Source: Enchytraeus crypticus
Lineage: Eukaryota > Annelida > Clitellata > Enchytraeida > Enchytraeidae
Direction: 5' to 3'
Length of the DNA stretch: 64,000 bases
NCBI GenBank assembly: GCA_905160935.1
Contig: CAJHZI010000695.1
Coordinates: 725,262 to 789,261, forward strand
Shown: positions 1,612-62,700 of the stretch, piece after piece
Position numbering within the stretch: position 1 is the stretch's first letter
How the letters are laid out: the number at the start of each line of letters is the position of its first letter
The notes under the pieces: generated by a model
The model's database searches: none
What the model was told of the DNA's origin: nothing
The model's input: the letters and a program-made list of their open reading frames with translations, nothing else
Translations under genes and position numbers: made by a program

Positions 1612-1746
1612 TTGAGCACGGAGTGGACGCAGCTGGAGGTCATTAACCTCATCAACGACGGGTCGGGCCTGGGATTCGGCATCATAGGAGGCAAGAGCAC
1701 AGGAGTGGTGGTGAAGACCATCATACCAGGGGGCGTGGCAGATAGG
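1612..1746 (+). CDS. MPDZ: MPDZ exon: PDZ2, first half
   Basis: Follows acceptor TTGTGCACAG and ends GCAGATAGG before donor GTGAGT, phase 0 at both ends. It encodes a PDZ carboxylate-binding loop [14 protein letters not shown], then IIPGGVADR, which closely matches MUPP1/PATJ PDZ2. The last 70 bases of the exon with its donor are repeated, about 94% alike, at 1856-1926. Confidence 0.9.
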
Positions 1747-4700
1747 GTGAGTACGATACAATACAATACGATACAATAGAATAGAGTACAATACAATACA
1801 AGACGATACAATAGGATACAATAGAATACGATACAATACAATACATTAAGATACATCATAGGAGGCAAGAGCACAGGGGTCGTCGTGAAGACCATTATAC
1901 CAGGGGGTGTGGCAGATAGGGTGAGCAATGCAATACAATAGGATACGATACTCTACGATACGATAGAATACAATACAATACGAAACAATACGACATTATG
2001 CAATACGATGCAATACAATGCAATACTATACGATGCGATACAATACAATAGAATACAATACGATATGATACGATAAAATACAATAAGACATGATACTATA
2101 CGATACAATACAATGCGACATAATACACTACAATTCATTACAACATATTACAATATAATACAATGCCATGCTGAACGATACAATACAATACAGTGGATAC
2201 AGTACAGTACAGTGCAATGCAATACAGTGCGATACGGTACGGCACGATACAGTACAATACAATACAATTCAATTCAATGCAATGCAATACAATATGTATA
2301 ATACCGTGCAGTGCAAACCGTTCAATACAAAAAAAAATATCAGTATATTGATGTTGGATGTCGAACTCATTGATTGATTGATTGATTGACTGATTGATTG
2401 ATTGACTGGCTGACTGATTGATTGATTGATTGACAGACTGATTGATTGATTGACTGACAGACTGATTGATTGACAGATAGATTGATTGATTTTAATATAG
2501 GTGACATCAACGTGCGTGGCATGGGTTCAGAACAGGTGGCCTGATTGATTGACTGATTGATTGATTGATTGATTGATACAGGACGGTAGACTGCACAGTG
2601 GGGATCACGTGCTACAGATAGGTGACATCAACGTACGTGGCATGGGTTCAGAACAAGTGGCCTCAGTTCTGCGTCAATCAGGGGCTCATGTCAGGCTAAT
2701 AGTGGCCCGGGCCATAGTTGAACCCCCACCTGAGTACCCCGCCTACGCGCCCATCATACCAACAGACCACCTGAGCGAGCATGTGCTGCAGCTAAACGCT
2801 ATTCTCAATGGTTACGCCGTCACACCTGATGACCCCACAGCTGCTGCAGCTGCTGATCCGCTGCTGGCCGGTGCTGAGGCAGCTGCTACTGCTGAGTCAT
2901 TGCTGTCAGCAGCTGTAGCTAGACAAATGGTAGCAGCTAGCAATGCAGCAGTCGCCATGTTGAGTCAGTCTAGAAAGAACATCCTGCTACCTGCTGAGGT
3001 TCATCCTGTATGTCCGTTTATCTGTTTGTCTGTCTCTGTATATGTTCCTCTGTGTGCCTTTAGTTGTATCTCTGTCCCTTTTTTTATGCGTATCTTTCAT
3101 GTATGCACGACTTGGAACTAAATATACAAATGTACATTTAGAAGGTACTAGAAGAACATAAATATACTTAGACTAAATTATTTATACTTATGTACTGAAA
3201 TGCTATAAATATTGCCCCATACACTAAATTAAATGCTGTGTGATGTAGCAGCTGAGTGATGTAGCAGCTGTGTGATGTAGCAGCTGTCTGATGTAGCAGC
3301 TGTGTGATGTAGCAGCTGTGTGATGTAGCAGCTGTGTGATGTAGCAGTTGTGTGGATGTAGCAGCTGTGTGATGTAGCAGTTGTGTGGATGTAGCAGCTG
3401 TGTGATGTAGCAGCTGTGTGATGTAGCAGCTGTGTGATGTAGCAGCTGTGTGGATGTAGCAGCTGTGTGATGTAGCAGCTGTGTGGATGTAGCAGCTGCT
3501 GTTAGAACGTTAAAGAAGAGATCGTAGGTTCTGATCATCTCTGACACTTTTGTTTTGAAAACATACTTTAAACTTAGCTTATTGCTTTTTGTATGTGTGT
3601 GTATATTGTGTATGTGTGCACATATGTGTGTGTGTGCCTGTATGTGTATTTGTGTGCGCCTGTATGTGTATGTGTGCCTGTATGTGTATGTATGTGTGCA
3701 CGTATGTGTATGTGTGCACGTATGTGTATGTGTATGTGTGCCTCTATGTGTATGTATGTGTGCACGTATGTGTATGTGTGTGTGCCTGTATGTGTATGTG
3801 AGTGCATGTATGTGTATGTGTGTGTTGCTGTATGTATATTTGTGTGTGCTTGTATGTGTATTTGTGTGTGCCTGTATGTGTATGTGTGCCTGTATGTGTA
3901 TGTATATGTGCCTGTATGTGTATGTGTGTGTGTGTGCACGTATGTTTATGTGTGTGTGTGCCTGTATGTGTAAGTGTATGTGCCTGTATGTGTAGACGCC
4001 CACCCTATTGATAGATGATCAACCACCTGCTCTACACCTGGGGGCTGACGCTGAGGTGTTTAACGTCAAGCTCAGCAAGGATGACCGGGGGCTGGGCATA
4101 ACCATTGCTGGCTACGTCACTGACTCCTCCAGTGGAGAGAGTATGCAATCGATCAATCAATCAGTAAATCAATCAAGCGGTCAACCACTAATCTACTAAT
4201 CAGACTGATCAATTAATTAATTAATTAATCAGTTAATGAAATAAGTTGAAATGTGTTCTCTCTCTCTCTTTAGTGCACAAATCTCACAAATCTCCAATAA
4301 TACTAACTCGAACAATTTAGAGACTACCGGGATCAATGTGATACCCCTATAATTATTAACGTCATTTACATCACCAAGTCTGTCTTTTAACGAGGGGACA
4401 ATAATTATATCTTTGTTATTACCAACAATGTCTTTATCAAAATATAATTTTAACTTTGATTAAATGCTGCTTTATACTTGTATTATTTAATGTTAATGTC
4501 GTAAGTGTAAAGAAGAATTTTAGTTAAATAACTACAATTGAGTGGTTGAATGATTCTCAGATGTTGGATAATGATTGCTAATGCTAGATATCATGATGGA
4601 CGTTGTGATATTGACAGAAGATGAAGTGGCTGGTATATTTATAAGAAGTGTCGCTGAAGGTAGCGCTGCAGCACTGAACGGTGGACTGAAAGTACATGAT

Positions 4701-6290
4701 CAGATCATCGAGGTACCTTATCAGTTGATAAACTTATCAGTTGATAAACTTATCAGTTGATAAACTTATCAGTTGATAAACTTATCAGTTCATAAACTTA
4801 TCAGTTCATAAACTTATCAATATATTCACCTCATCAGTTGACAAACTTATAAATACTTTCATGATATCAGCTGATAAACTTAACATTGTCTTCAGCTTTT
4901 CAGCTGATAAACTTATCAATACATTCATTTTATCAGTCACTCTATCAGCTAATAGATTCAAAATATCAGCTGACCAATCGTCTGTATTTCCAATAATAAT
5001 TTAACGTTCTCTTAAAAATCTACCAATCAGTCGATAGTCAATAATCAGCAACTGTTTTTTTTTAATTGATGGACTTTGAATGTTAGAATTATACATGTTT
5101 ATAACGTCGACTTAAAAAAGCTAATTAGACTAATGTTAACGTCAGTTTCATCAACTAATATCTAATAATGTATATATAATGTACCTGTAACTATATACTT
5201 ATTGTTTGTTAAATTGTTTGATAGACTGATTGATTGATTGATTGATTGATTGTTGCAGGTGGACAATCAATCACTGCAAGGCTATTCTAACCAGCAGGCT
5301 GTGGAGGTATTACGTAACACGGGTGACGTGGTAACACTGAAGCTCGCTAGATACAAGCAAGGTGGCTCCATCTACGATCAAATAATCCACAAGTCCGGAG
5401 AACATATCGACACGTCAGGTGCCTATGTCAAATTTTATGACGTTCCGATAGCTAGAAGTCGATAAGTTTATCCAGAGGATAGCCACTGTTGGATTTTATG
5501 AACTTTACAATCCGCTAGTATCAGTTGATTTACGTCCAATTTTATGACGTTCCGATAGCTAGAAATCTACAAGTTTATCCAGGGGAAAGCTACTGTTAGA
5601 TTTTATGAACTTCTCAATCCGCTAATATCCGCTGATTTATCTGTTGATTTAGCATCTTAAATTCCACCGGTTAAGCTTGTTGCTTATTCGCTAAATTCTA
5701 ACGTGTATGGGAAATTCTTTCTGGGACATTTTAAGCGCGCTGGTCGCACTAGCCAATAGCAGAGCTCAAAGATCTTCTATCGCTTTGAATTCTTGGAAAT
5801 TTAACGTTATCGAGTTAGGCTGAGATTGTGATCGAGATTGTTTCAAAAAACGGAAAAAAATAAAAAAGATAACTTAATATTTGCATAAAGCGAATATTAA
5901 GTTATCAGGGCAACTAAGACCAAATCTATAATTGGTTAAAAGTTTTATCGTTTACACATAAAATGGGCCATAACTCTATCATTGGCTGTGTCACACCACA
6001 ACATCTGTATATCTAAACTAGTTTTTATGTGAGAGAATATTGCTTAAATATCATAATATTAATTATTATTATTAATCCATATATAGTTACACACCGACAT
6101 ACTGCTACACAGTTTCCTTTCTTGGTTTCTGTTTTTGTACTTTTCGTTATTCCTCCATTCCTCTCCATGGTTATTAATAACTATAATTAAGGTTTAACGT
6201 CTGTTTCCTCATTCAAGGATGATGTCGGGGACGTCTTTAGTAATCGTTGCCTTTTGTTATTACGTATTACGTAGTTTGTATTACGAGCAA

Positions 6291-6328
<38 letters not shown>

Positions 6329-7251: not shown

Positions 7252-7308
<57 letters not shown>

Positions 7309-7676
7309 AATAATATATTTTATAATATATTTTAATAATATATTATGAAATATAATTAAATATGTTTATTTTTTAAATAAAATATATTTTTGCTAATATA
7401 TTTTTAATATATTATTATTATTATATATTTTTATTTATTTATTTATTTTTTATTGTGTTTTTGTTTATCTATTCTCTGGTTGTCTCTAGAAGGTCAAATG
7501 CAGTCAGACGCGGAGCAGATTCTAGCCATGAAGTGGAGTGCTATAGTGGGAGATGCCTTTGATATAATTGTAAGTATTTCTCACTCTCAAACTTTTCTAC
7601 TGGATTTAACTCCACTTATCATTAGCTCTGTTTGTCCTCATCTCCCAGGCTTAAATTTCTGTTTATGTGAGTGGGT

Positions 7677-7736
<60 letters not shown>

Positions 7737-9518
7737 TTTATTTTTTATTTATTTATTTTATTTTAATTTTTTTAATAATATATTTTATAATATATTTAAT
7801 AATATATTATGAAATATAATTAAATATGTTTATTTTTGAAATAAAATATATTTTTGCTAATATATTTTTAATATATTATTATTATTATATATTTTTATTT
7901 ATTTTTTATTGTGTTTTTGTTTACCCATTCTCTGGTTGTTTTTTATTACCGTAAATATTTCATTAAGTGTGAACACTCCTTGTGCCAAAATAGAGTTATA
8001 AATTTTTAACAAGACTTATTCCTAGAGTCTATATCAATAACCGTGACCGGTAATTGACTTAGTGTTATGACGTATAGGGACTTAACAGGAATTTAAAATA
8101 GTAGAAATAGTAGAATTAGTAGAAATGTGGTTCTCTGACTTTATATCGATTTATGCCGTAGTATTAAAATGACGTATAGAATTTAATTCTGCGCACTTCA
8201 TGCTCTTCATCTTCATCTCTGCTCTTTTGGATCAATTGAGTAAATGATTAGTTGATTGACAAACTGATTGTCTAATATTGTTTACTTGTTTAAATAATAA
8301 ATGACTAAAGCCAAGACTAACGTCAATTTCCTGCTCGATAGCATGTCAGTGACGGATGGAGCACTGGATTTGAGCCCAGCACTGACTGGTCCGCTGCGGA
8401 ACAACTTACCAACAAGCCACCGCTCAGCCAAACTGTCGGTTCTATTTATTTACAGGTGGAAACACCCTTGTGTGACAAACATGAGTGAATGAATTACTTG
8501 ACTAGTGCATAGATAAACTAATTAATTGATTTATTGATTGACTAAGTGATTGATTAATTGATTGATTGACTAAGTGACTGGGTGATTGTCAAATTGATTG
8601 ATAGATTATCGAATTTATTGATTGATTGACTAAGTGATTGCGTGATTGACAAATTGATTGATAGATTATCTAATTTATTGATTGATTGATTGACTAAGTG
8701 ACTACGTGATTGACTAATTGATTGATAGATTATCTAATTGATTGATTGATTGATTGATTGACTAAGTGACTGCGTGATTGACTAATTGATTGATAGATTA
8801 TCTAATTGATTGATTAATTGATTAATTGACTAAGTCACTGCGTGATCGACTAATTGATTGATAGATTATCTGATTGATTGATTAATTGACTAAGTCACTG
8901 CGTGATCGACTAATTGATTGATAGATTATCTAATTGACTGATTGATCACTGCCGCAGGTTGCTCAAGTCCGGAAGTTCAAGGAGACTGGAGGAATAGGGA
9001 TCAGTCTGGAGGGCACGGTGGACGTAGAGAACGGAGTGGAGGTCCATCCTCATCACTACATCCGGTCAATCTTGCCCGAGGGTCCGGTAGGACTCGATGG
9101 GAGGCTGATGAGTGGAGATGAGTTGCTCGAGGTAATCCTTCTAGTGACGATATAAATCAATCAAATTTCTTAATTATGAAGGTGTTTATCTACTAATAGT
9201 TGTAAAAAGTAAACCCGAATTATATTGATATGATCAACTATGTTGATATCTATCACTTTCAATACCACATGTTTAACTCGTTAGGCAATTTACACCATTT
9301 TCTGTATAACCAGTTCAGTGAATGTCAGAGATTTTACGCTCAGATCGGCGCGGCTGGGATTCGAACCCACGAGAGTTCCATTCACCTCAGGATCTGTCAC
9401 TTAAAACTTCATGAGTTTTAAGTGGATTGATTGATTGATTGATCAGGTGAACAGCACCAGACTGCTGGGAAGGAACCATATTGAGGTGGTCTCTATTCTC
9501 AAGGACTTGCCTCAGCTC

Positions 9519-9596
<78 letters not shown>

Positions 9597-12500
9597 CAGG
9601 TGAACAGCACCAGACTGCTGGGAAGGAACCACATTGAGGTGGTCTCTATTCTTAAGGACTTGCCTCAGCTCGTCTCTGTGGTCTGTGCTAGGAGAAAACT
9701 TCCCACACACTGTCCACCCCCTCCGCCAAACAAAGATGATCCAAATCTGGTGCCATCCCCTCGCTCCTCTTCCTCGGACCTTTCTCTCACAGAGCGCCTG
9801 TTCAAAGCCAAATCCGATCTGGAGTTATTTGCCCCAGGGGCTGGTCTGACTGGACCGGCATCATCGGTTTTGGATCACTCTGTGCTGTGCAATGGGTCTA
9901 AACTCAAGTGGAGGTCCCTGGAGCCACTGAGTGGACTGGCTCTTTGGACGAGTGACGTCATCTGTGTAGAGCTAGAGAAGGGAGAGCGAGGACTCGGCTT
10001 CAGTATTCTAGACTATCAGGTAGTTAATTTATCGTTCATTTCATCGACCTCTGACGACATATCAGGATCTATAGAAGATATTAGATATGAGCAATACTAA
10101 TAATATGAATCTTTATTTCACCCAAAGGCAGCAAATTAATATAACAGTGACAATCTAACATAGTACATAACTATACTATACTTACATATAATTACACTAT
10201 AATTCAATTTAATTAAACATAATTATGCAATAACAAATATAATTATACAAAATATGGATCACTTAATTGTAATTAATGTTTATTTGTTTAATTTATCGTC
10301 AGTTATATATACTCAATTATTTTTTCTATAAAATATATTACTATTATTTATTATTTAAAAAAGCCAATTGTTTACTTTTACTTTATTATTTATTACACTT
10401 CCATATAAAAATATAAAATGTGTGGCTGTGTTATAGCGTACTATTATCTATTATACCAATAAAAGTATATACTTTCTCAGTATCAATTTCAGTATCAAAT
10501 TTCTCAGTACCTCAGTGTCTTCTATTTTTGTGATTGTCACATTTTGCGCTTGTATTTCTGTCGCATATTGTTATATCTGATTTGATTAGAATAATTTGTG
10601 TTTGATTATTTAAGTGATTTACGGATGGACTTGCCATTTAACTGTTGTCTGACTAAATAGTTTATTTTACAAATTACGAAAAGCATTATGGACTCATTGC
10701 TGGAATTATTGACTGATTGATTGATTGATTGATTGATCGATCGATTAATTGATTGATTGATTGATTGAATGATTGATTGATTGTTTGATTGATTGATTGA
10801 TTGCTGGCTTGCTTGCTTAATTAATTAATTAATTGATTGATTGATTAATTAATTAATAGATTGATTGCTTGCTTGCTTAATTGATTGATTGATTGATTAA
10901 TTGATTGCTTGATTGATTGATCCAGGATCCCATACACAACGACGAGATAGTGATAGTTATACGTAGTTTGGTACCAGGAGGCGTGGCTCAACTTGACGGA
11001 CAGCTTGTTCCAGGAGATAGGCTGGTCTATGTTAACGACGTGAACCTTGAGAGAGTCTCATTGGACGAGGCGGTACAGACTCTCAAGACCACGCCTAGAG
11101 GTGTGGTCAGGCTGGGAATAGCCAAACCCCTGCCACTGGCGCAGTCTGACGGCAACCTAGTGGACGTCGACAAGTGCATCGTAAGATCATTAGATCTTAT
11201 AATCATCATCATCCTCCCTTGAATCCCAGTTTAACCAAGGTCGGGACACAAATAGACTGTCTCAAATCCTCACTGTCCTACACCACACCACCAGCCAATC
11301 TCCTATTTGACTTTTCCATTCGTTGAAATGTTTGTAGTAATTTAAAAGTTTTTATTTAGTATATATATTTTAAAATTTAGTCCATTCATAATTATATTTA
11401 ACTGATTTCATGAGCAACTAATGAGCAAATTCATTACTTTCAGCCGATGAGCCGCTTACGTGCAGCTGATGAGCAGCTGATGAGCAGCTGATAAGCAGCT
11501 TTTAAGTAGCTGATAAGCGGCTGATTAGCAGCTGATGAGCAGCTGATAAGCAGCTGATAAGTAGCTGATAAGCAGCTGATAAGCGGCTGATTAGCGGCTG
11601 ATTAGCAGCTGATGAGCAGCTGATGAGCAGCTATCGATCAGTTCGATATCAGCTGATCGTGTTTCAATGTTTTGTCACTGTTTTTGATTACAGCTGGATG
11701 CAGTACGATTAGAAGCAGCTGAGAGAGCTGCTGCTGCTGCTGCCGAGGCAGCAGCTGTAGTAGCAGCTAGAGAGGCAGCAGCTGAAGAAGCTGTAGTAGC
11801 AGCTGAGGAAGCTGTAGCAGCTGAGGTGTCGAGTCCTCGAGCCTCGAGATCAGCTTGCTCATCCCCAACCAACTACCAGCACGAGGTGCCTCCCCCTGTA
11901 CTATCAAAGGTGTCACTGGATGTCACTCATTTTCTTTCTATCTCTCTCTCTCTATCTACCTGTCTCTCTATCTCCCTCTATATCTGTCTCTCTCTGTCTC
12001 TCTCAATCTTTCTATCTCTTTCTCTTTTTCTGTAGTATTTAAGCGCTCTGACTGCTCGTGAGTTTAGAATGTACTGGCAGTTAGTATTGATTTGTCGTAT
12101 GTTTAGAATGAATGTATCATCAGTTCGTATTGATTTATCGTACCTCTGCTGTTCACAGAACCCCGGGCTGAATGACTCAGAACTAATCGAATCTTCCGAT
12201 CAACCTCTTCGTCCAGATGAAGCTAATAATCTAGGTCAAGGTCATCCATCAAACAGGGTCAAGGTCAACTCACCCACCGGTGCCAAGCCTCTAGTGCCTC
12301 CAAAACCTGTCTCACTCAGTCCACCAGCTGATCAGGTAGTTATCAGTCCACCAGCAGATCAGGTAGTTATCAGTCCACCAGCTGATCAGGTAGTTATCAG
12401 TCCCCCAGCTGATCAGGTAGTTATCAGTCAGCCAGCTGATCAGGTAGTTATCAGTCCACCAGCTTATCAGGCAGTTATCAGTCCACCAGCTGATCAGGTA

Positions 12501-12922
12501 GTTATCAGTCCACCAGCTGATCAAGTAGATTTTACGAGCAATTAAGTAATTTCTGCAGTACTTAATTCCAACATTCAATACATTTTTAAATTTATGAAAA
12601 TTTCGTCAAGACATTTCAATAATAGCCTATCAATTGACCTCATATTGCATGATCGTTTGTATAGAATTACTGAAGAAAGTTTTATCTCAAAAACTTCAAC
12701 ATTTGAAAATGTTTCAGTATTGTGGTTTACAGGTTTCACTGTATTTAATTGTTTGACTTTTCTTGTCTCATACTATTTCTACACTTTTATGTTGCTCTTC
12801 TTCTCTTTGGTATCTTAACAGGCTTAGTAAAAAAAACAATTAAACAGCAACCTGTGTCTCCGCTACTTTACATTTTTAAAGTTTTCTTTCGCTTAACTAA
12901 ATACACACAAATATATAATCAA

Positions 12923-12976
<54 letters not shown>

Positions 12977-13006
12977 TTGATTATATACTTGTGTGTATAT
13001 AATCAA

Positions 13007-13061
<55 letters not shown>

Positions 13062-15725
13062 CCCCTATATAGTATAATATATATAGTATACTAGTAGATT
13101 ATTGTTTGGATGACGTTTATAGAATTGTGGTGCGATTGATACTAGATCTTTAAAGATAATGAAGACTTCAAATCAGTTCGACTTATAACGGTATTTACCG
13201 TATCGACTTCTTGAGGGAGCAATAAAACGTTACTATTTCTTTCATTCCACAGGTGGCGCTGTCAGTAGGTGGAGAAGAAGTGACAATAGTTGTCTCGAAA
13301 GAACCCGCTGAGTCACTGGGTAAGTGTAGAGACACGATTAATCACTGATTGAGTGACTGGGTAAGTGTAGAAACAGGATTAATCACTGATCGAGTCACTG
13401 GGTAAGTGTAGAGACATGATTAATCACTGATTGAGTTACTGGGTAAGTGTAGAAATAGGATTAATCACTGATTGAGTCACTGGGTAAGTGTAGAAACAGG
13501 ATTAGTCACTGATTGAGTCACTGGGTAAGTGTAGAGACATGATTAATCACTGATTGAGTCACTGGGTAAGTGTAGAGATACGATTAATCACTGATTGGTC
13601 TTTGGTAAATACCAGAGCCGAGTTTATCCTTAGCTACGTCTCTTAATAAATCAATCAATGGGAATTTAACGTCCGGTTCCTCGCCATAAGTCAATGTCAG
13701 GGACGTCAACGTTGAACTGATGAAATCAGTGACGGGAATGTTTTAAAGTTGAACTGTGAACCTATTGATCCACTGCAGAGCTAATCGATATTGCCACTGC
13801 CGCATGAAATGTTTATTTTGTTGTTGGCACTGAAAAGAATCTTTTCGATTAGACTATAATGAGGACAAGCATATCTGTGAGGACAAGGTACGTAGTGTGT
13901 GCTTTATAACTTAGTTCAAGACGACCACTATCAGCTGATACTCGACCGCGGATCAGTATGTGTGGGATTCAAATCCTGGGCTCGCCCGTCACTGACACCA
14001 CTTTCGAGTGAGGAAACTGAGATTAGCTTTACCAGCTGCTAAGCACGTAGGCGCTTATACCAGTCATTATCTCATCAGAGTTAGTACACTCCTCTCTGAG
14101 GTGCTCTTTTAGGAGAACCACATCACGAATAATGTTCACCTTTATGTGAGAGCATGCATATTGCAGTTGCTACATGGACTCTGCATGTAACATGCCTGTA
14201 TATGCATATTGTAAATTTACTTAGGCTCTATTTGACCCTACTCATATTCTTTTTTACTCATATTCTTTTTTACTCATATTCTCAAAGCTAAACTTCCCTG
14301 TTATGAAGGATATTCAAACGAAATGTCTCTGTTTTTCTAGAATTTGCTGCTGGTCAAGTTTTGTAAATTCTAAGAACAGCCATCTACTCCTTACGCTTTC
14401 ATTGTAACAACAGTAACACAAGGAGCATCGGACATAAAAACATAATATACTGTAGATCTAAAAATATTTTATAATGAGATATTATAAAATACGCAGGTCT
14501 GCAATTAGAGGCGGGAGGATGCAGCGCAGTGAGTGGCTGTTTAATCAAGTCAATATCGACCAATCAGGCAGCAGCACGTGATGGCAGGCTGAAGGTGGGA
14601 GATGTAGGGGTGGGGGTAAATCATGAGTCACTGAGGGGGGTGACGAATATTCAGGCTAGGGGGGCCATTAGGAGAGCCGGGCTCTCTTCAAATCATATCA
14701 GGTCTGCTTAGTAAATAGTTCATTAATTAACAGATTAATTGATCAGTTGATTAATTAACTAGTGAATTATTTAATAATTAATAGTTAATTATGCCTCTAA
14801 TAGTTAATAACGTCCCTGACATCATCCTTGTATGAGGAAACGGACGTTAAACCTTTATTATTATTATTTTTATTTATTGTTATTAATTAACCAACTAGCC
14901 AAACTAATTACTTAATTAAATTGTAGTGCTTTACATTATCAACAACATCATTAGAGTGCTGCTTTCACTTGACCATCCAAAGCGAAAGAACAGAATTTAC
15001 CAGAACTGCTACCATCTTTCGTTATTCCAATATTTCTTCAAATTTATGTAGCAGGAATAAGGGAAGCAAGCCTAGGGCTTGTTTCAATCCCCAATCATAC
15101 ATGATTACAACATCTAGCTTATTTTTAAAACTATTCACCAACACCGCATTCACAACCTCCTCACTCAATTCATCACGTGATCTGCGCTCTACAGGCTGCA
15201 GAGTTGAGAATAAAAATAAATAAATAAACAACTATTTATTATTTTATTATTTATTATAATAAAAGAGTTCCACCTATCAATCACCCTTTGAGAAAAAGAA
15301 AATTTTCCTAAGTCTGTCCTTACGCTAGGCTTAAACAACTTATAGCTATGACATCTTAAACCAAACAAGCCTAAGTGATTGGCTAAGTGAGATGAATTCA
15401 ACTCTCTTTATCCAGGTGAGCTCTATAGTGTAGTGATAGATATTAACATGGACGATCTGGTGTGTTTAACGTTTAATATAAGCTTTGGTGACTATTGATA
15501 ATGGGTCGAGATAGGAAGTTTTTCTAGTTCTATGTGATTGGCTAGTGCATCAAACTGGTAAATATTACATTTAATGCTGTTACAATTGAGTAAAGCAGCT
15601 AGAAATATATTGATTAAGTTAAAGTTTGACCAAGGTAGATCCTTGGTTGAAAAAGAGTAAATATTATAAAAACAAGTGGAGAGTGAAGGCGTTATATACC
15701 ATGGACCTGCCAGTAGGCAGTGTAC

Positions 15726-15759
<34 letters not shown>

Positions 15760-16554: not shown

Positions 16555-16599
<45 letters not shown>

Positions 16600-19500: not shown

Positions 19501-22500
19501 GGTAGCTTCCGTCGTTCACGGAACTTATGAGGAGGTGGTTGAAACAATGGCCTCACCGCTACGTTGTGATTACAGCAGATCAGCCTGTGGTGATGAACAG
19601 GAGTCGAGCGACACTGGGACAAGCCTAGTATCTCGTGAAGCCAATCCTCTCGGTGTCTACTCGCTGGACCTGCCGTGTGACAGTATCACGCCCGTGCCTT
19701 GCTTCCACTCTCCACTCGCTGTCTCTTCCAGATCTCCAGTTCCTCCCCTGGATCATTCCACGCTTTCCATACTCTCTCAACCCGATGCTGAGTCTATCCC
19801 AGCACTAGCCAATTCTCTCTTAGACTCTTCGGGCAGATCTTCTGCTGTTATCATGCCTCGCTCTGTCTCTACCGCTCTACCAGTCAACGCTTCCATCAGA
19901 ACAGACTTCAAATCTTCCGTTTCTCATTCGCGTTCTTTCACGAACAGTTCGGCGAACAGAAGCTTGCCAGCAGAGAACAATTTCAGCTCAAGAAGCCGCT
20001 CAGCGCTGTTGGGTAAGACATCAAGTGCCGAGCAGATTCATCAACCAATCGCTTCTCGTGTAGGAAAATCATCGTCGAGTCAGCTGCCGCTCTCGTCATT
20101 AGCTGAAGCGGATGTCCTGCATACTTGCTCAAACCCTATCATGAGTGCATCGGAGTATGCTGAGTCAGGTCAAAGGTCAGTTGACGTATCGTGTCGAAGG
20201 TCATCCCTTCAGACTCAGAAACCGGGGGTAAGAAATTCCATGTCTAATTCACGTCGCAGGAGACAGTTGAGTATATCGAGCGAGTTGTCGTGTGGCGGGA
20301 GAGATAGGGGATTTCGCCTGGCTGATGTGAGGGGAGGGGTAGCTATACAGTCTGAGAGAACTGTCATGGATGATGTAGACTATGTTTTGTATAGATGTAG
20401 CGTGGTGAAGAGGTCAGAGTTCAACTCTAGGCAGAGCAGATCTACTGGTTAGTCTGGTACTCTTTTTGTCTTAAGAACGCCATTAGTTGACATGTTTAGT
20501 GTTGCCACTTCAGCTGCTGCATTTAATTGTCAGGCCATCAGATAGTATGCATTGGGTTTATGGGTGTCTAATTTTGACATACATGACATCTGTTGCATAA
20601 ACTCACCTTCATCACAATCATCATCACTATCATCATCTTCATCATCACTATCATCTTCCCTTGACTCCCAGTATAACTAGGGTCAGATGATCAATTGCAT
20701 AAAGTCGAATTATAAAATGTAAATACACTCTGAACATCCAATGGTGCAATTATATCACGTGACAGTTCCATGTTGTTGTCATGACGAGGCGTACGATAGC
20801 TATCGAATGTATTTGTTGTGATCATGAGTGACGAGGCGTACGATAGCTATCGAATGTATTCAATATTTTAAGAACTTTATCGAGACTCAACAGGAAGCAT
20901 ACAAGTGGAAAATCATCATCATCTTCGCTTGAATCCTAATTTAACCTGAATCGAATACGAATAGAATTTCTTTCGTATTCGTCTTAGAAAATTTTGTTTC
21001 TAGTGGGCGACCACTATCCTGGTCCCCTCGATTAAGATCTTAGTGCTTAGTCTCCCTTTGCACAGTCAATCAATCACTAAGAATTTAACGTCCGGTTCCT
21101 CGCCATAAGGCAATGACAGAGACGTCTCTTGCAGACTGTGCACAACAGACGCCAAAACACCACACAGTCAAAAAGGTTGTTCTACTCTAAAGCAACCCGG
21201 ACACAACACGAGTAGCGATGGTCGGGATACAAATAGACTGTCTCAAATCCACTCTGTCCTACAATACACCACTAGTCAATCCGCTAAATGAGACTTTTCC
21301 ATACGTTAAAATTTTAGTAACAATTTATGGAGCGTAGCGGATCACCAACTGAATGCCCTTTCTGACGGTATTTATTTAGTCGTTAAGATGTAAAAATGGG
21401 TGTTTGTTAGCAGGCAGCTCTTCAAAGCTTAACCCTCGCTATTTGAGTTTAGCCTCTGAAGGGCAACTACACCGCGTCGTGCTCAATCTACAATCTTCGT
21501 CAGTCAGTCACAACCTATCCCAGAACACGTCGTCTTCAACAGTGCTTTCCTCATCCACAACAACACTGAGCACCATGCAGACAAGTCACTCTAAGTCTGA
21601 TCATACATATCGTGACCCTGGTCAAATCAAACAAGAAGAGAGTGAGAAGAGAGAGAAAGAAGATGTGGATGAGGAGAGAGAGAAAGAAGAAGAGAAGAGA
21701 GAGAGAGAAGATGATGATGATGAGAAGAGAGAGAAAGAAGATGAGGATGAGTGTAGAGCAGAGAGGAGGAAGCTTGGCCTCAGACTCGTGGGTCACAGGA
21801 ACGACTCTGCACTGGGAGTGTTTGTGATGGGCGTGGTCAATGAGAGTGCTGCAGCCAGGGATGGGCGGATTTGGATTGGGGATCAGCTGCTCGAGGTAAG
21901 CGATGATCCGGTGATTCACTCCAGTGACAGTGATATCACTGCACGTGATAACAACAACAACAACAATTAGAGTGCTACAGTCATCAATGACAACATCGAG
22001 CTCTATTGAGACAAAATGATATCACTGCATGATGTGATTAAGTGATACTAGTGATTTCATTCCAGTGATATAATATCACTGCACGTGATGTGATTAACTG
22101 ATGCTAGTGATTTCATTCCAGTGATATTAGACATTTGTTAACTGGATATTGAGACAGATAAACAGATTAATTTATGACAGATAAATAGCTGTTGTTTATT
22201 TATGACTAGTTATGACAGATTAATTTATGACAGATGACTATTAATTTATGACAGATGGCTATTATTTTATGACTGACTATTAATTTATGTCAGATGACTA
22301 TTATTTTATGACAGATGAACAGCTGGATGTTGTTTATATATGACTAATTATAATTAGTCATAAAAAACAACATCTGTAATAATTATGACAGATGACTATT
22401 AATTTATGACAGATAAACGGCTGTTCTCTACTGGATCGCTCTCATGTCAACGTCTCCTCCATCATCAGTGGAATCAACCTCTCCACAGTCGAGATCATTC

Positions 22501-22521
22501 TACTCAGGTCTTCTTCATTTA

Positions 22522-22674: not shown

Positions 22675-24965
22675 TGCTTAAAGGTCGGTTAGAATCTTTC
22701 TGTCTTGAAATGTAAGTCCTACTGGTTGAATTACTCAATCACTGTGCTGTGTTTATAAAAGAGTTGATTTTACTCGTCATATGACCTGTCCTGTTGATTG
22801 ATTGATTGATTGATTGATTAATCACACAGTGTTCTGTGTTTGCAGGAGAGCTGACTACATTCATCACATGGCCTCTCCTGTAGGCATTAGCAACACTTCG
22901 TGCACTTTCAGGGTGAGTATTGGCAAATTTAAAGATTATTAGTTTAATTTTCTGCTTAATGTTTCTCTCTAGTTTTGTGGTTGGTTTATAAACTTAGCTA
23001 TATTATAATTACAATTTAATTTATTAATATTAAAGCACTCATTGCATATGGAATTTTGTTGGATCTATTGCCTCATTATATGAAGGCAAAGTTTATTCTG
23101 ATTTTAATTAAGTCAATCTAGTATCGAAAAGATAGAAAACCAATTAAGAGCTTTATCTAAATAGTTAGAACTGCATATTATAAAATGTCGCACTATGCCT
23201 AATCTAATCTGTATAGTGGAAACGTTTCGATGCTAAATTAATTAGTTATGTTATTGGCTAAGATATTAGCTATGTTATTAGCTATGTTATAATCTCTGCG
23301 ATTATCTGTGTTATTAGCTACGTTATTAGCTATGTTATTAGGTATGTCATTAGCTATGTTTTGGCTATGTTATTAGCTATTTTATTAGCTATGCTATTGG
23401 CTATGCTAGTAGCTATGTTATCCGCTATGTTATTAGCTATGTTATTAGCTATGTTATTGCTATGCTATGGTTGTGTTTTTGGCTATGTTACTAGCTATGC
23501 TATAGACTATGCTACTCTAGTTTTAAATGTTGGTATTCACTGCGCAGACTGATCCTGACACCCTGATCCCGTTGAACCTTCCACCTCCTACAACACTGTG
23601 TCCTTCTTCCAGAGTTCCTGCTCCATCAACGTGCCTTAACACCACCACCACTACCACCACCACTACCACCACCACCAGAGAGCTTCCTCTTCATTGCACC
23701 AGTTCCTCTCCAGCATCCTTACGATCAACAGCTGACCTATCAACCTTGTCTAGCTCAGTGCTCAGTGCTGCGTGTAATGAGACGGTGCGGGGATTTGAAC
23801 CCGGAGACCTGTTGACCAGCAGTGGTGTGCGGAGCTCCACTGGTCGCCAGGCGGTGGCTGGTTTATCAGAGAGTGGCGACCTCTTAGAGGACAACAAGAC
23901 GATGGGTTCTGAGACACTTGAAGTTAAAGAGATTCACGGAGACTCCGTCGTCCTTGACGACTCCTCTGCAGAACTGTCTATTGCTCAAAGAGTGAAAGCT
24001 AATCTTCAACATTATGACACAGTGGCTCAGAATTTATCGTTTGACACAACGGCACCGTCAGCTTTATTGAACGGATCTCCAGAAGAAAAGTTAATGGTAA
24101 AACCTGATGGATATGAAGCAGTTGCACCTGGTACCTTCTGTTTGAAGCATTTTAATAATTTCAATACTTATCTGGAGTCTTCCAAACCTGTTCGTCAGTT
24201 AACCGAAACTTTACCTGTCAGCTCTATTAGTAGTCAACCCGTAAGTGAGGATACTTTACCTGTCTACACCACAACTGATCAGCCTAAGGATGGTGCTGGT
24301 AACACAGGGGCAGTCTATTCTCTGGGCTGGTCCTACCATTGTGAATCCTGTCTTACCTGCAGCATTGCCACATCCAATGAAGCTCATTGCACTGCTCTTA
24401 ACTCTCAGGCGTCCCATTCCAGTGGAAAGCTTCTTGATGAGAGTCATAGAAATGGAAACATTCCATCACAATCAGATAACATCCACACAAATACCTATAA
24501 AGATATTGCACGCTGCTCCTCTGTGTTAAACTCTGCATTACTTGAAGAACCTGCTTCCTGTCAAAATCCATATCTCGAATCCTCCAAGATTCCTAACTAT
24601 TCCCCTAATATTCCCAACGATTCCCGTAAAATTCCCAGCGATTCCCGTAAAATTCCCAGCGATTCCCCTAAAATTCCCAACGATTCCCCTAAAATTTCCA
24701 GTGATTCCCCTAAAATTCCCAACGATTCCCCTCCCACGGACAGCGAGCACAACTTGAGCACTGTGTCAGGCGGGGTGGACGCTGATGTTGAATCCAGTGG
24801 ATCCACTCAGAGGGGTTCCCTGGAGGGAAGAACTGGGAGTGAGAACTGCCAGGCCCTGGATAGCTCGAGATCTGCAAGTTCTGTTGTTACATCGGTGGAA
24901 GTGTATCAGTCGACACCTGCGGAGAGAGAAAAGAAGAAACCAGGCAGATTAAAAGGTTTGACTAT

Positions 24966-24996
<31 letters not shown>

Positions 24997-37660: not shown

Positions 37661-37784
37661 ATATTGATTTAATGATACTTGTGGAATGTCAACCCAAAGG
37701 AATAGAATTAAAAATCTACACATCTACAAAAAACATTACAATTTCATAACATTGAGGGTTAAACATTCGTAGTTAACAGTGATA

Positions 37785-37918
37785 AAAGCTGGTAAAGCTA
37801 ATGTTAACGTCAGTTTCCTCACTCGAAAGCGATGTCAGTGACGGGCGAGCCCAGGATTTGAACCCGCACCTACTGATCCGCGGTCGAGTATCTTACCGAC
37901 TTCGCCACTGGCTCTATT
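37785..37918 (-). repeat. tRNA-derived SINE, family 1
   Basis: Near full-length minus copy: GAGCCAGTGGCGAAGTCGGT head (complement), box B complement GGATTTGAACCCGC, and a tail with AGCTTTACCAGCTTTTATC. Confidence 0.88.
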
Positions 37919-53718: not shown

Positions 53719-56700
53719 AGGTGGTGTTCTACCCCAACAAGGCTAACCTCACCTGAAACAGACGCTAAATCCTTTAATGTCCTACTTAAATGGATTTTGC
53801 ATCTGACCTCGTAACTAAACTACACTAATCTAAAGACCCCGACCTTCTACAGATTAACTGACAGACTACCATATTTAATATTTAATTATTTTAATGTAAA
53901 CTAAAACGCGAATTCAATACAGATCAAGAAAATAAAGAAATATCCAAATGTATAACATCAACAAAAAAAAATCAAGTAAGCCTAAGTTTAAATTGCCAGT
54001 CCTTATGATGAATCTGAAATATTCATATACACGTTTAACTCGAAACACTAAAACAACTTTACTTGATATAAGATCAACAAAAATACCATACCTAGCTCTA
54101 TCTAATTAACACGTCAAAACATAAATTCCACTATGGAAATGCTAACTGATTATTCCTCAATAACTGCGTTTACTTCAATCGTATTTCGGGAACTCTTTCC
54201 TTTGATCAACTATTGATCAACTCCTGGATATCACCTAAGGATTATCCAATACTGTTCTATAACAGTCTAATTCTTTCGATCCTTCTAATCCTCTATCCAA
54301 ACCAACACGTGGAATCTCATCTCCCACCTCCTCTCATGACCTTCACCTTCCTCCCCTCTCAAACCAAAACAAAAAACCCTCTAGCTCCGCCCACTCTCGT
54401 GACGTCATAAGCTTAACTAACTTCTGAACTCCCTAATAATAAAAATAATAAAATCAATCAAAATAATATTAGATAACTTTCCATATATATAAATAATATA
54501 AGTAATCTTACTATACAAAATATCAGGGCATAATTCCCTGACACCTCCACAGCAGATTTTACATGTTCAAAACCTGTAATTCAGTTACGTGTTCACAAAC
54601 CATTAAAATCGATAAACCAAGAAAAGAATCGAGGGGTATGCACTGATAATTTTGAGGAAATGTCAACGAAAACTGTCCAACATTTATAATTTCACAACAA
54701 TAAATATCAATGTCTATTGTACCTAAACCTGTATTAATCAATCAAAGGTTTATTTTGTACAACGTTATCTAAACATATTAAATGACTAATTACTGCTTAT
54801 AGATATACAGTATACATGTATATTATGTAACGATATCTATATATATCTGCTTAGATAATCCGCCGTGTTATTATTCGCCCCTACAATATGCTTTATATTA
54901 GCATCATAACGACTTAAACTTAAACTCCATCTTGTTAGTCTAGCGCTCTTAGGTATAGTGTCTTGCAAATATTTCAATGGATCGTGGTCTGTGTATATCA
55001 CAATACTGCAGCCGTATATCAGATAGTCGAATTTTTCTAGCGCGTGAATAATCGCAAAAGCTTCGCGCTCAATTGTAGACCAGTTCTGTTGAGTTTTCGA
55101 CAACTTCTTTGATATAAACGAAATTGGACGTTCGTTTCCATCATCATCCTTCTGACTTAATACTGATCCAACAGAAATTAGTGACGCATCTGCATGTATA
55201 ATATATTCCTTGAAAGGATTGGGAGACTTTAATTTTGTTGCTTTAATTAAAGCTTCTTTCAAGTCGGTGAAAGATTTCTTCTGTTCATCGTTTAACGTGA
55301 CATTTCTTATTCGACTTTTCTTGGTTAATTCTGTCAGTGGATATGCTATTTCAGCAAACTTTGGGATGAACGATCGATAAAACGAACACATGCCTAAATA
55401 TGATCTAACTGCCTTGACGTTTGTTGGTTCTAGTAAGTCACATATTATATTTATTTTCTCTTCCAGCATTGATTTCTCTCCGGAACCTCTCATATGTCCT
55501 AGAAATTTAACTTTAGACTTCGCAAAATTGCACTTTAGAAATTTCAATGTCATACCAGCTTGACCGATGGCATTAAGTACCGTATCTAAATGTTGCAAAT
55601 GATCATTCCAGTCGTCTGAATGTACAACTATGTCGTCTATGTATGACCTCGCGAACTGAGAGTATGGCCTTAATATTATATCCATTGCTTTTTGGAATGT
55701 AGCGCTGGCAGTCTTCAGACCAAAAGGCATATAGATCCACTCCATTAAACCTCTAGACGTCTGAAACGCTGTTTTATGAATGTCTGTTTCTTTGATTGGT
55801 ATCTGCCAATAACCGCTCGTGCAATCAAGTGTTGTAATATACTTTGCTCTGCTAACTTTATTCAATATTTCTTCAGAGATGACTGTTGGATATCTATTAC
55901 TTGCTGTACCTTTATTTAGCATGCGCATATCCGTGCACAGTCGCAGATTTCCATCCGATTTCTTAACAGCTACTATTGGATGATTATATTCACTGCTCTG
56001 GGAGTGTCTGATTTTCCCTTCTTGTAGCAAATCGTCAATTTGTCTCTCTATTTCAGATTGTAATTTCTCAGGGATTCTGTATTGCCTCTGTTTAGTAGGT
56101 TTAAACTCTGGTATTAAGTTGATTTCATGCTGAATCACGTTGCAATGACCTGGTTTAGACCGGAATATCTCCTGATGATTATTCAATATTTCTTTTATCT
56201 GCCCCTCCTGAGTTTCTGATAGATGATCTAATTTTAGGCCATTTAACTGATTAGTAAATTCCTCCCTGTCTTTGTCTTCCTCTTTGATCTCGGGATACAT
56301 TTCAATGTTTCCGAACTCTTCATCTTTTTCATAAATAATTCCAAGAGTGCTTACACGCTGAATAAACTTTCTCAGATCATTAGCATGTAGTTTTCTAATT
56401 CCGCCTGATTGTAATTTTACTAAGTAAGAATTTTTATCTAGTACTTTATGGATTATAGCTGGTCCTATCCATTTTGATAGAAGCTTGTGAGAGCTGCTCG
56501 GCTTCAGTATCAAAACTTGTTCGCCTTCTTCAAACTGTTTGACGTACGCTCTTAAGTTATACTGCTTCCTGTAATTTTCTTCTTCTTTTTCTGCGTTCTG
56601 TGTTGCTAGTTTTTGAGCTTGTCCTAATTCTTCTTGAATACTCTCTAGGTATTTATCATCTCTCCTTCTTACTGGTACTTCTGGTGTTTGATCATTCGTC

Positions 56701-59700
56701 CAAAGATTTTTCAGTACTGATAGTGGTCCATTTATAGGATGTCCAAAGACCAGTTGATGAGGTGAAATGCCATTAGTCGAATTGGGCAATTCTCTGTACG
56801 ACCATAGTAAAAACGGTATGGAACGGTCCCAATTCTTCAGTTGTTTCTCTTCACTTACAATATGGTGCAGTCCTTTCTTAAGCTCTTGATTATATCTTTC
56901 AATGATAGCGTTTCCTTCTGGGTGGAACGGTGTTGAAGTTCTGTGTTCAATTCCAAATTTCTCGAAGAACTGCTTTGTCAGTGAAGATGTCATATTCGTA
57001 CCGTTATCAGATATAATTACTCTAGGTACGCCGTACGTCGGGAATATGCTTAATAGCGCATCGCACAGTTCCTTTGCTGATGATGTCTTTAGCGGTACTG
57101 CTATTGGATACCTTGTTAAACTACAAATTGCTGTCAAAATGTATTGATGACCTCTAGATGATTTATTAGGAAAAGGTCCAATTAAATCGATATTGATGAC
57201 ATCAAAAGCTTTGAGCCCCCGTTCTACAGGCTTAATAGGAATTCTGTCCCTCACTGTCTTTCTAGCTACACTTTGGCAAGCTTCGCATGACTTCACATAT
57301 TCTTTAATCTGTTTTGACATTCCAGGCCAGAAGAAGTGCCATTCTATCCTTTTCTTAGTTTTCTTATGACCTACATGTACACTCCATATAGAATCATGTG
57401 CTGTATATATAATTTTCTTCCTATGTTCTGCTGGAACTACAAGTTGTTTTACTTCCTGACCTCTAACTACAGCTTTCCTGTGTAAAAGTTGGTTTGTACT
57501 GTCAACGTAAAACTTTCCACTGTTCGGTTCTTTTGCTCTTTTCCAATATGCAGCTAATGTCTTGTCATGTCTTTGGGAAATTTTAAATTTCATAGCGTCT
57601 TCTTCATCCATGTTTTCTAATATTTGTATCTTTTGTGGGTCATATTTTCCTTCTGTGTTGTCTCCTTCTGCCGATGTTTTAATTCTATTTACTTCTTTAA
57701 TTTTCTCATCTCTGGCTATTTTCCCTTGACTTTCATATACTTCTTCTTGTTCCAGGTTTTCACAATGTTTAATATTTTGTTCCTGTTCAGGATCTTTATG
57801 ATATTCATCAACTTGATCTTGTTCTTGATCTTTATGATCTTCATCAACTTGATCTTGTTCTTGATCTTTATGATATTCTTTACTGTTTCTGCTTGCTAGT
57901 TTAGCTGCTGTCATCAATTTATTCACGTCGTTTTCTGTAAGCAATGCGACATTTTCCACTAATTTATCTGTTACAGCACACTTCAAAATAATGCACGGAA
58001 TTTGTGATGATCTCTTAGAATCGGCTTCAAATGATAATTTAACAGGTATAGCAATTTCTTTGGCTGTCACTGCTTCGCCGAACGCTGCTTGTAGGATCCA
58101 TTTGTCTTGACTCGATTGTTTAGTTAAATATTCTTCAGGAATCATAGATGTATGCAGTACTGATATCTGTGTACCAGAATCTCTAATAAACTCCACGATA
58201 TTGCCACCGAAGCTGGCTAATTTAGTTTCCTTGGGTTGATCAAGACAAATTTCTTCCGTTTTGTACTGTTTCGTTACTTCATTATAAATTCCATTCTGAT
58301 GGTCTCTCTTAGTAATCACTCTCTTTACGAATTTCAGTCTTGTATCTGGCATATTTAGATGTCTGCACTCCAACATTTTATGGTTTTCCTTGCCACAAAG
58401 CCAACAAGCGTCGGGCTTATTTCCATTCTTTCTGTATTTACAGTCTTTAGTACTGTGATCGTCGGTTGTCTTACATATGAAGCATTTCTTTGTTTTCAAT
58501 GTATCGCTTCTGGCATTTGACTGCTCTGGCACTTTACTGTTAAAAGTATTCAACTTGTTAGTACATTCCTTTGCTAGATGTCCACTATTGTGACAAATAA
58601 AGCATGTAATTTTTTCTCTCCAACTTTGGTTTTGGTTTTTGACGCTGGTATTACTTTGAAAGCTTTGTTGTTTGCTTTGCTCTTCCCCTTTCTGATGATA
58701 ACCTCGTCCTGAACTATATGTTTGATTGAAGTAGTTATTTTGATATCTCGACGTTTCGAATATATCGACTATTTCAGCCATTCTTGCAGGCTTTAAGTAT
58801 TGCTCCTGCTCTTTATCGTGGATGTGGTTTCTACTTGGCCTCTGCAGACTGTCCCTCAATCTATCTCCAATGATTAAGTCGTTGATTTCTTCAAAGGTCT
58901 TTATGCCTCTTGATTCAAGATAATATCTCCACGCTGTAGATAGTCGAGTTGTAAATTGTGTACAGCTCTCATCTTCTCGTCTGGTTGTACTTAAGAAATG
59001 TTGTCTATAAACTGTAGGTGTGAGTTGGAACTCCCTTAATATAATAGATTTCCAGTTGTCGTAGTCATTTGCTTCTTCCAATTGTAGAGATACCGTATGA
59101 TGTTTTGCTTTTCTGTTCAGATATGGAGTCAGAATAGCTACTCTTAAATCCTTTTCCACGCTGTAGGTCTCAAATAAATTCTCCATCTGGATAAAATAAT
59201 TCGGTATTGCTAATGGGTCATTGGGCATGTGACTTATTAATCCTTTCGTTGTTTCTAGAGCATTTCTTAGCCTGAAACCTCTTTCGTTCATCTGTTCCTC
59301 TTTGAGAATTTTCTCTTCTTCTTCTTTGGTTTTTTTCTCCTTGTACTCTTTATCCCTATATATTCTTTCTTTCTCCAATTCAGCTAGTCTTCGTTCTTCT
59401 AACTTTGAAATATGACTCTGCCATTGTATTCTTTCTTCTTCTCTACGTTTTTCCAAGTTTTCCTCCCTAATTCTTGCCTCTCTCCTTTCTTCGTTTCTGA
59501 GTCGCTCTGCCTCTCTCCTATCTTCCTCTCTAGATGCTACTAGATGAGCGATCAAAGCATTAACGTCTAATATCGGATTTTGTTGTGTGGATTGACGTCT
59601 CTCTTCTTTAGGTGATGGATCTCTTGATCGCTTTGTGAAGTGCATTTCTTGTACTTGTGCGAATGTAGCATGATCATATGGCGCTGGCTGGAAATCTTGA

Positions 59701-62700
59701 AATCCTTTTACAGGTGTGTTAGCTCCTGCCTGTGATCTTAGACACATTGTGTAGTGAATTATTTCAGCTCTCGTCATATTCTTGATTTCTTCCTCCGTGA
59801 ACTTGATCTGATACGCTATCAATTCTTTCATTAGACGATCAGTTCCTGATTTAACGACTACCTTATATAGTTGAAACTGTTGCTCTGTTTCCATGTCAAC
59901 GTAGCTAAATCCTTTTGATGCGGGATGACCAGATATTGCCACTGCTGGATCTGCTTGCGACTTTATTGCCGAAGTTGTAACCGTGCCTAAAGATGAAAGT
60001 GAAACTGATTGAGTCTGAATATTCATATTAGCCAGCTGAGATATTGCACTAGCTGTATGACTTGATCTACCCGCAGCACATACCGCTGCTGTAGTCACCG
60101 ATGTAGCTGCAACTTTCATCACATTCGCTTCTGTTGTACTTGTTTTAGATTTTTCTGCCATTATCTCTCCGATAAGCACGAGAAGTATCCAACCTCAGAT
60201 AGATTTATCCGTCAGTTCGTAATTATTTAATACTTTCTTGCAATATAGCAGTTAATAATATTTTAAGTATATATATACTTTCTCACAGCTTGATAGCTCT
60301 CTCGCTCATCATGATTAAGAATATTTATAAGTAACTTTGCAATTTTTCCAATTACCATATGAACAAATCATTCAACATTTACAGCAAATGAGATTGCATA
60401 TTTAATGTAATTTATATGGTATTTTATATACTCATACAGAACGGCAAGATTTAATATAATTCAATTATAATCACACTGTAACTGTTCTACAGAAATGTCT
60501 TTCTTTACATTATAAATATATAGGCTATTTTAATAACTGGAAAAGCATGAGTAATATATCCGACAATTTCTCACACGAAGTTCCAGTGTTTACTTAAAAT
60601 CCAATTTTATCATAAAATTTACATTAAATTCCCTTAAACTTCTAATTCGTACGACTAGATTTTTCGGCAATGTATCGCGCTATCATAAACTGATCAAATT
60701 TAATTATTACACTAGCGTATTTTCACTTTAAAATGTTATCCAAAATAAAATATATTATTTAAGTATTTAAATAACTCTCTCCCTCTGTCGACTGAACCTT
60801 ATTTAATAAAATATTTACACCTGACTTGAACTTGTTTACCTTTCAAAATTACTTTTTATTAATTTACATCCGCAAGATGTCGAAAGTATATAAACACGTG
60901 CTTTTCAAAGCAAATTCAATACGCCCGAAACTCGCCCAACTCCTAAACTGTCTAATCCTAAAATATTAAATATCGCACTAAAATAAATCTAAGAATCCGT
61001 TAAAGGTCTAACTATGGTCTATTGGTCTGGGCACCAAATGTCAGGTGGTGTTCTACCCCAACAAGGCTAACCTCACCTGAAACAGACGCTAAATCCTTTA
61101 ATGTCCTACTTAAATGGATTTTGCATCTGACCTCGTAACTAAACTACACTAATCTAAAGACCCCGACCTTCTACAGATTAACTGACAGACTACCATATTT
61201 AATATTTAATTATTTTAATGTAAACTAAAACGCGAATTTAATACAGATCAAGAAAATAAAGAAATATCCAAATGTATAACATCAACAAAAAAAAATCAAG
61301 TAAGCCTAAGTTTAAATTGCCAGTCTTTATGATGAATCTGAAATATTCATATACACGTTTAACTCGAAACACTAAAACAACTTTACTTGATATAAGATCA
61401 ACAAAAATACCATACCTAGCTCTATCTAATTAACACGTCAAAACATAAATTCCACTATGGAAATGCTAACTGATTATTCCTCAATAACTGCGTTTACTTC
61501 AATCGTATTTCGGGAACTCTTTCCTTTGATCAACTATTGATCAACTCCTGGATATCACCTAAGGATTATCCAATACTGTTCTATAACAGTCTAATTCTTT
61601 CGATCCTTCTAATCCTCTATCCAAACCAACACGTGGAATCTCATCTCCCACCTCCTCTCATGACCTTCACCTTCCTCCCCTCTAAAACCAAACAAAAAAA
61701 CCCTCTAGCTCCGCCCACTCTCGTGACGTCATAAGCTTAACTAACTTCTGAACTCCCTAATAATAAAAATAATAAAATCAATCAAAATAATATTAGATAA
61801 CTTTCCATATATATAAATAATATAAGTAATCTTACTATACAAAATATCAGGGCATAATTCCCTGACAATATCCTCTATATTTCTTTCTCTCACTCAATGA
61901 CGTAGAATAAATGCTGCTATGTTCTGACAAGGACTGCTGTGTTATGTTCTGTGCTATGTTCCAACAAGCACTACTATGTTTGCTGCACAGCTGCTGTGTT
62001 ATATTCTGTGCTATGTTCTAACAAGCACTGCTGATGTTTACTGCACAGCTGCTGTGTTGTGTTCTGTGCTATGTTCTAACAAGCACTGCTGTGTTTGCTG
62101 CACAGCTGCTGTGGTTCACTAAGGAGCTGGTGCAGAGTGCAGTCGCTGGCTCAGACACTATCTGCCACTCTCTACTCAGACAAATAGCTGGTCTGTGTCC
62201 TCTAGCTTCCACTTTCTTCTTTCATTCAATCAGTCGCTAATATATATAAAGCTAAGATGTGTGACATTCTGAAATAGTGCAAAGTGAAGGATTAACGATG
62301 GACTGATTTTACTTTCTATTAACAATATTATTGATTTTTTTTCTAATAATTATGGAAGGGCATTATATTTTCAGATGATTTCTTTTAATTCTTCTTCTTC
62401 TTCTTCTTCTTCAGTGCACTGCCAAGTGGCAGGTTCAAGGTACATATTCTTACTCAAAGTCTGTTTCCTCACTCCATAAGAGAACTTCTTAGATCAACAA
62501 GTTAATCCCTTCACAAAGTCTATGCCTTATCCATACCTTATGTAGCCTATAGCTTGGTAAAAGTATGGCTTCTGAGGTGATTTCCCGTTGCCTTCCTCAG
62601 TTCCCGTTGCCTTCCTTTTAATTATCTCAATGCAAAGACAACTATTAAAGACTAGTAAGCGAATTCATTTAATTTAGTTCTTAATTTCTGTCAGTGTCAA

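Follow-up and report, generated by a model that had tools for sequence, protein, structure and literature searches.

Local copies of exon edges and splice sites recur on a contig of the annelid Enchytraeus crypticus without an excess at exon-intron junctions

In the last 64 kb of contig CAJHZI010000695.1 (C599) of the Enchytraeus crypticus assembly GCA_905160935.1 (524 Mb in 802 contigs), hereafter the window, introns of several genes contain local tandem copies of the adjoining exon edge together with its splice site. This raises the question of whether exon-intron borders have some property that drives their amplification, as the original prediction held, or whether duplications fall anywhere and selection decides which of them remain. 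We confirm that the exon-edge copies are real in the assembly and recurrent, while amplification directed at junctions is not supported when tested on this one contig. The explanation that we consider probable is that frequent tandem duplication in noncoding DNA, combined with purifying selection, accounts for the junction copies, with arrays of the tetranucleotide ATTG as frequent partners.

The DNA read comprises 164 kb, that is, the window and the preceding 100 kb of the same contig, with no N in either part. Reading frame and splice sites were used to model four genes in the window: a multi-PDZ gene (1612-31164, plus strand, 25 exons), a POLR3G-like gene (33603-37347, plus strand, 5 exons), CAP (43806-41400, minus strand, 2 exons), and an INTS3-like gene (50703-62865, plus strand, 6 exons), with Pfam support for pieces of all four (PDZ, RNA_pol_3_Rpc31, CAP_N with CAP_C, and Ints3_N). 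The CAP homologues that have a named organism, among the 120 listed of 372, come from animals, none of them close; the best is from Ptychodera, with 44% identity over 39% of the query. A junction was counted as spanned when a local direct repeat, at most 1 kb away, includes at least 8 exon bases and at least 2 intron bases. By this measure, 14 of the 70 modeled junctions of the window are spanned, with donors and acceptors contributing 7 of 35 each. Upstream exons were predicted with our own finder, using codon log-odds and splice matrices trained on the window; scored on that training window, 18 of its 26 predictions were exact and 22 of 26 overlapped one of the 36 modeled plus-strand exons. 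Of its 88 upstream predictions, we kept the 39 that were recognized as gene pieces and discarded 49, leaving 78 junctions. These pieces belong to a LIS1-like gene, syndetin (VPS50), a laminin-G gene, and a DNAJC21-like gene, all four backed by Pfam, and a fifth is probably the start of the multi-PDZ gene. Here 11 of 78 junctions are spanned, 3 of them at insecure donors (the upstream donor calls at 24798, 3708, and 2344 are insecure).

Taken over the whole contig, 25 of 148 modeled junctions, in seven genes, are thus spanned (in the LIS1-like gene only at insecure donors), and this is the observation that speaks for a property of the borders themselves driving their amplification. We nevertheless consider such a property improbable, because the same junctions do not stand out from their surroundings. 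Local-repeat cover falls from intron windows (29.6%) through junctions (14/70) to exon windows (7.1%), and this order is kept whichever of seven exon-side requirements, ranging from 4 to 20 nt, is applied. When all junctions were moved jointly within each segment by random shifts, the 14 spanned junctions of the window compared with 11.8 expected (standard deviation 3.5, P 0.30), and the 11 in the upstream 100 kb with 18.4 expected (standard deviation 4.0, P 0.97). The predicted excess over chance is therefore absent: junctions exceed exon interiors and fall below introns, and the suggested comparison of repeat units at junctions with shifted positions gives no excess on the one contig (164 kb) to which it was applied. 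Furthermore, the rate is lower among PDZ exons on other contigs, where only 1 of 38 junctions is spanned (at locus L018); set beside the 25 of 148 here, the difference has Fisher P 0.02. Those 38 junctions were taken only from exon ends with an open frame that closes within 150 nt, and the flanks of these exons have a repeat cover of 12.6%.

The compartments do differ with respect to the reading frame. Tandem Repeats Finder covers 24.6% of the noncoding and 7.7% of the coding sequence in the 164 kb. Among arrays of period 5 or more, drawn from 314 non-redundant arrays, the period is a multiple of three in 9 of 10 arrays within exons, in 7 of 17 across exon edges, and in 71 of 200 elsewhere; coding exons thus hold frame-keeping periods and other positions free ones, as for minisatellites under selection. 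Such a filter in exons, yet none at junctions, is what would result from duplications that arise at any position and are lost under selection where they disrupt the frame. The coding exons of the multi-PDZ gene contain in-frame tandem repeats at 11775-11821, 21644-21745, and 24589-24732, with periods of 21, 51, and 21. Tandem repeats of at most 2.6 copies with a period of at least 30 match at 73% to 98% (21 arrays, some of which touch exons), which is a spread of ages, such that copies of some age are common here.

The course of events that we propose begins with a genome that would generate and retain many short tandem duplications and minisatellites in noncoding DNA, with start points anywhere. 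Within a coding exon, only frame-keeping duplications would survive, while most of those across an exon edge would do so, because one intact exon with its splice site remains and the surplus goes to the intron, where it may grow into an array. The mutational step would be slippage or template switching that begins in ATTG arrays.

The arrays at intron ends are oriented. Of 74 acceptors, 27 have an (ATTG)n run of 8 bases in the 70 nt upstream and none has (CAAT)n there; of 74 donors, 9 are followed by (CAAT)n within 70 nt and 2 by ATTG. The background across the same 164 kb (4684 70-mers, the arrays themselves included) is 4.6% with (ATTG)n and 3.0% with (CAAT)n. In six introns (2556-2575, 5229-5252, 9519-9594, 29100-29115, 36253-36268, and 52226-52237), 6-9 nt separate the end of a sense ATTG array from the acceptor, and its reverse complement CAAT begins 11-13 nt after two donors (29961-29972 and 53179-53194). 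At PDZ loci on other contigs, ATTG precedes 4 and CAAT 1 of 22 acceptors, and neither follows any of 22 donors; 3 of the 30 PDZ loci have internal stops and were retained in this count, but excluded from the 38 junctions above. A genome-wide count of the strong donor CAGGTAAGT gives 11 cases with CAATCAATCA within the next 16 bases and 3 with TGATTGATTG. By itself this excess of CAAT over ATTG after donors has P 0.06, and adding the local counts of 9 and 2 brings it to 0.004. Base composition shows a broader trend, with more C than G starting 10 nt past donors and more G than C ahead of acceptors (73 of each, over 80 nt), so the strand skew flips along introns. A pairing of donor CAAT with acceptor ATTG in the same intron was considered and set aside as a general rule, as only one intron was seen to hold both (upstream 90187-97192, by eye).

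ATTG within 70 nt accompanies 9 of the 13 acceptors that have a spanning copy, compared with 18 of the 61 others (Fisher P 0.011), which suggests that the duplications begin in ATTG arrays, and units consisting of an ATTG array, the acceptor, and the first 14-72 exon bases recur. In a stronger version of this idea, the CAAT and ATTG arrays would be both a splicing signal and break sites, giving rise in many genes to duplications that carry exon edges, some of them spliced as constrained in-frame mini-exons; we regard this as unlikely. The pentamer TTGAT presumably resembles a branch-point motif. Five-base words before the 44 acceptors without ATTG do not single it out.

The differences between exons and their intronic copies lie mostly at silent positions. 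The first 67 nt inward from the end of exon 1 of the multi-PDZ gene, with donor 1746 (1680-1751), recur 174 bp downstream in the intron (1854-1925) with 5 differences, all silent. An interior stretch of exon 2 (2618-2663) recurs amid ATTG repeats at 2497-2542, 96% identical, with 2 differences, both silent, confirming the prediction that the copy before 2582 is an internal exon segment. The first 72 nt of exon 9600-10019 have an upstream copy at 9447-9518, with an acceptor ahead of it and 2 silent differences, and an (ATTG)19.5 array (9519-9596) lies between this copy and the real acceptor at 9600. Similarly, the first 65 nt of exon 29122-29238 are found upstream at 29003-29067 with 2 silent differences, and (ATTG)n at 29072-29115 separates this copy from the real acceptor at 29122. 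All of these features are on the plus strand.

The test of silent differences began post hoc on four such cases; its systematic version takes in all exons with an intronic copy of at least 36 nt, which are 10 of 77. These ten exons differ from their copies by 27 silent and 12 replacement changes (P 8e-4 against the 43% silent expected from a model with a constrained exon and a neutral copy). If two rows are left out because their exon ends are insecure and extend into repeats, 24 silent and 3 replacement differences remain (P 3e-7 at f = 0.41 and 3e-6 at 0.45), and no more than one replacement is seen in 7 of the 8 secure rows. Within the explanation that we favor, this preponderance of silent changes suggests that the copies would have derived from another coding allele, or recombined with one, in the recent past, by unequal exchange between homologues.

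Several observations weigh against that explanation. The silent excess is hard to square with a copy that ages neutrally in an intron, and an allelic origin needs very diverse alleles. In addition, a DNA search of the assembly did not find a second haplotype of exon 2582-3007; it gave one full match, the 46-bp copy of the exon described above, and, on a different contig, one short match. Some copies are also rich in replacements, among them copies in the 51594 array (by eye) and a third copy of a CAP exon edge, which is too diverged for the ten-exon list and has 4 silent and 5 replacement differences. PDZ loci were considered as possible haplotypes and rejected, since comparison with the contig and with each other showed them to be paralogues, overlapping loci, and dispersed repeats. 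Read from sequence, three accounts would fit the silent pattern alike: an exchange involving a diverged allele, two haplotypes assembled together, and in-frame splicing of mini-exons.

The last of these would amount to intron gain underway, with the upstream copy as an in-frame mini-exon under protein constraint and the ATTG array as a new small intron. Besides the mostly silent differences, this possibility draws on the presence, in 5 of 5 acceptor-side copies examined, of a GT whose distance from the start of the copy is a multiple of three, and on a reported precedent in a potato RdRp gene (PMC4974935). Where an ATTG array follows, such copies could not be read through into the exon, because (ATTG)n, as a plain reading of the repeat gives, has stops in all frames. 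However, any valine codon would supply an in-frame GT, the last in-frame GT would imply introns of just 33 and 36 nt in two DNAJC21 cases, and the copy at 2497 appears, from a reading of the sequence, to be out of frame with the preceding exon. We therefore regard intron gain in progress as doubtful.

It is similarly unlikely that the two-copy cases with silent differences are an assembly artifact, in which parts of two haplotypes have been laid end to end (false heterotype duplication). Mostly silent differences are what alleles would give, and this type of error is documented (PMC9516828); two adjacent copies with allele-like differences resemble it. However, splice-site arrays of about 6 to 13 copies cannot be two haplotypes, and many arrays here exceed two copies. 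That paper counts gaps separating the copies among the marks of such errors, and the 164 kb contains no gaps; moreover, contigs of the assembly reach more than 3 Mb.

The individual arrays in the window, on the plus strand unless stated, bear out most of the originally predicted positions. All seven predicted donor arrays are present by the spanning measure. Besides the copy at donor 1746, they comprise a 27-bp array of 7.9 copies (12316-12528) that takes in the donor of exon 12159-12335 and the 20 exon nt before it; a 41-bp array of 7 copies (13309-13597) that takes in the donor of exon 13253-13319 and the 11 exon nt before it; the region of donor 24955 (24946-24969, 10 exon nt), repeated 174 bp downstream within a 31-bp array (25075-25201); a 20-bp array of 4 copies at exon end 27482 (27472-27556); a compound 37/46/81-bp array (51560-51853) with the last 35 nt of INTS3-like exon 51511-51594; and a 93-bp array of 3.1 copies at exon end 53168 (53115-53403), with (ATCA)n in its units. 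The best exon copy in this last array, 53 nt long and 186 bp further on, differs from the exon by 4 silent changes and no replacement.

On the acceptor side, the copies predicted at 9600, 22413, 29122, 29813, 62106, and, on the minus strand, 41611 were all found. The region of acceptor 22413 (22383-22423, 11 exon nt) is repeated 98 bp upstream; a 41-bp array of 3.7 copies (29673-29823) reaches 11 nt into exon 29813-29948; a 57-bp array of 3.1 copies (61934-62113) reaches 8 nt into INTS3-like exon 62106-62190; and the acceptor copies of the second CAP exon, which starts at 41611, occupy 41610-41731 on the minus strand and include the diverged third copy discussed above. The array predicted at acceptor 53067 also exists, as 6.4 copies of a 56-bp unit (52722-53077) reaching 23 nt into INTS3-like exon 53055-53168, but the reading frame puts the acceptor at 53055. 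An array of 10-bp units does run from the POLR3G-like stop codon onward (37341-37623), while its overlap with coding sequence is confined to the final 7 bases. The case at 7490 did not hold up, as the repeated stretch sits in both introns flanking the exon and lacks exon bases (by eye). A similar AT-rich stretch (by eye) occupies 7253-7480 and 7670-7945, in the introns either side of the 80-nt exon 7490-7569.

Outside the window, an acceptor of the upstream DNAJC21-like gene is preceded by a 50-bp array of 12.9 copies, whose unit comprises an ATTG array, the acceptor, and about 27 exon bases (by eye). On contig C776, a donor with CAAT occurs twice, 155 bp apart, and a pattern search of the genome for three adjoining GGTAAGT gave no match. 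Of the proposed genome-wide tendency, recurrence thus stands, in several of this contig's genes and in at least one place off the contig, whereas preferential amplification of junctions is not supported. The expectation that such arrays would enlarge introns and offer redundant splice sites was borne out, as they lengthen introns and leave several intact copies of the splice site.

The neighborhood of these genes also contains candidate mobile elements. Intron 4 of the INTS3-like gene carries what looks like a long-terminal-repeat (LTR) retrotransposon insertion (53719-61881), with near-identical stretches at 53719-54543 and 61040-61881 (by eye), and 44500-47560 has the look of a non-LTR retrotransposon (by eye). 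Short dispersed elements of about 140 bp (for example, 37777-37916 and 62936-63091) have copies on this contig and at PDZ loci of other contigs; they contain the motif GGTTCAAATCC, which we take to suggest a short interspersed nuclear element derived from transfer RNA. The contig itself terminates within a 117-bp compound array (63649-64000), and thus the assembly may have broken at that repeat.

Ordinary minisatellites (variable number tandem repeats) overlap gene features. The arrays described here resemble them in their units of 10-119 bp, in their imperfect copies, and in that exonic arrays mostly keep the frame; what differs is the share of junctions in arrays (25/148), which seems high. 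In the potato gene (PMC4974935), a segment duplicated in tandem reportedly straddles an intron-exon border, and RNA reads prove that an intron was gained and exon sequence added. Like that duplicate, the direct copies found here at 14 of 70 window and 11 of 78 upstream junctions take in exon bases, the splice site, and the end of the intron, and differ little from one another; unlike it, they are seen in the DNA, lie side by side in many cases, often contain ATTG arrays, and often exceed two copies. Tandem genomic duplication counts among the supported routes of intron gain (PMC3443670, PMC2891723). There, a coding segment containing AGGT is duplicated in tandem and a new intron results; the shared feature is that duplication near splice motifs yields spare splice sites, whereas on this contig existing junctions are copied and existing introns lengthened. 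Compared with introner elements, which are near-identical and create introns at many loci, the units on this contig resemble local exon copies that share ATTG/CAAT tracts, and when the assembly was searched with exon 2582-3007, the copy of its interior came up at the local site alone. Among the open-licence papers that our literature searches listed, we found no account of many junction copies in one genome or of oriented ATTG arrays at splice sites.

If the mini-exon reading were true, new introns and exons would have been caught forming in many genes simultaneously. If what we report is the typical rate for this animal, spare splice sites would arise constantly through plain tandem duplication, such that intron growth, splice-site redundancy, and perhaps intron gain could proceed without special machinery and be watched in one genome.

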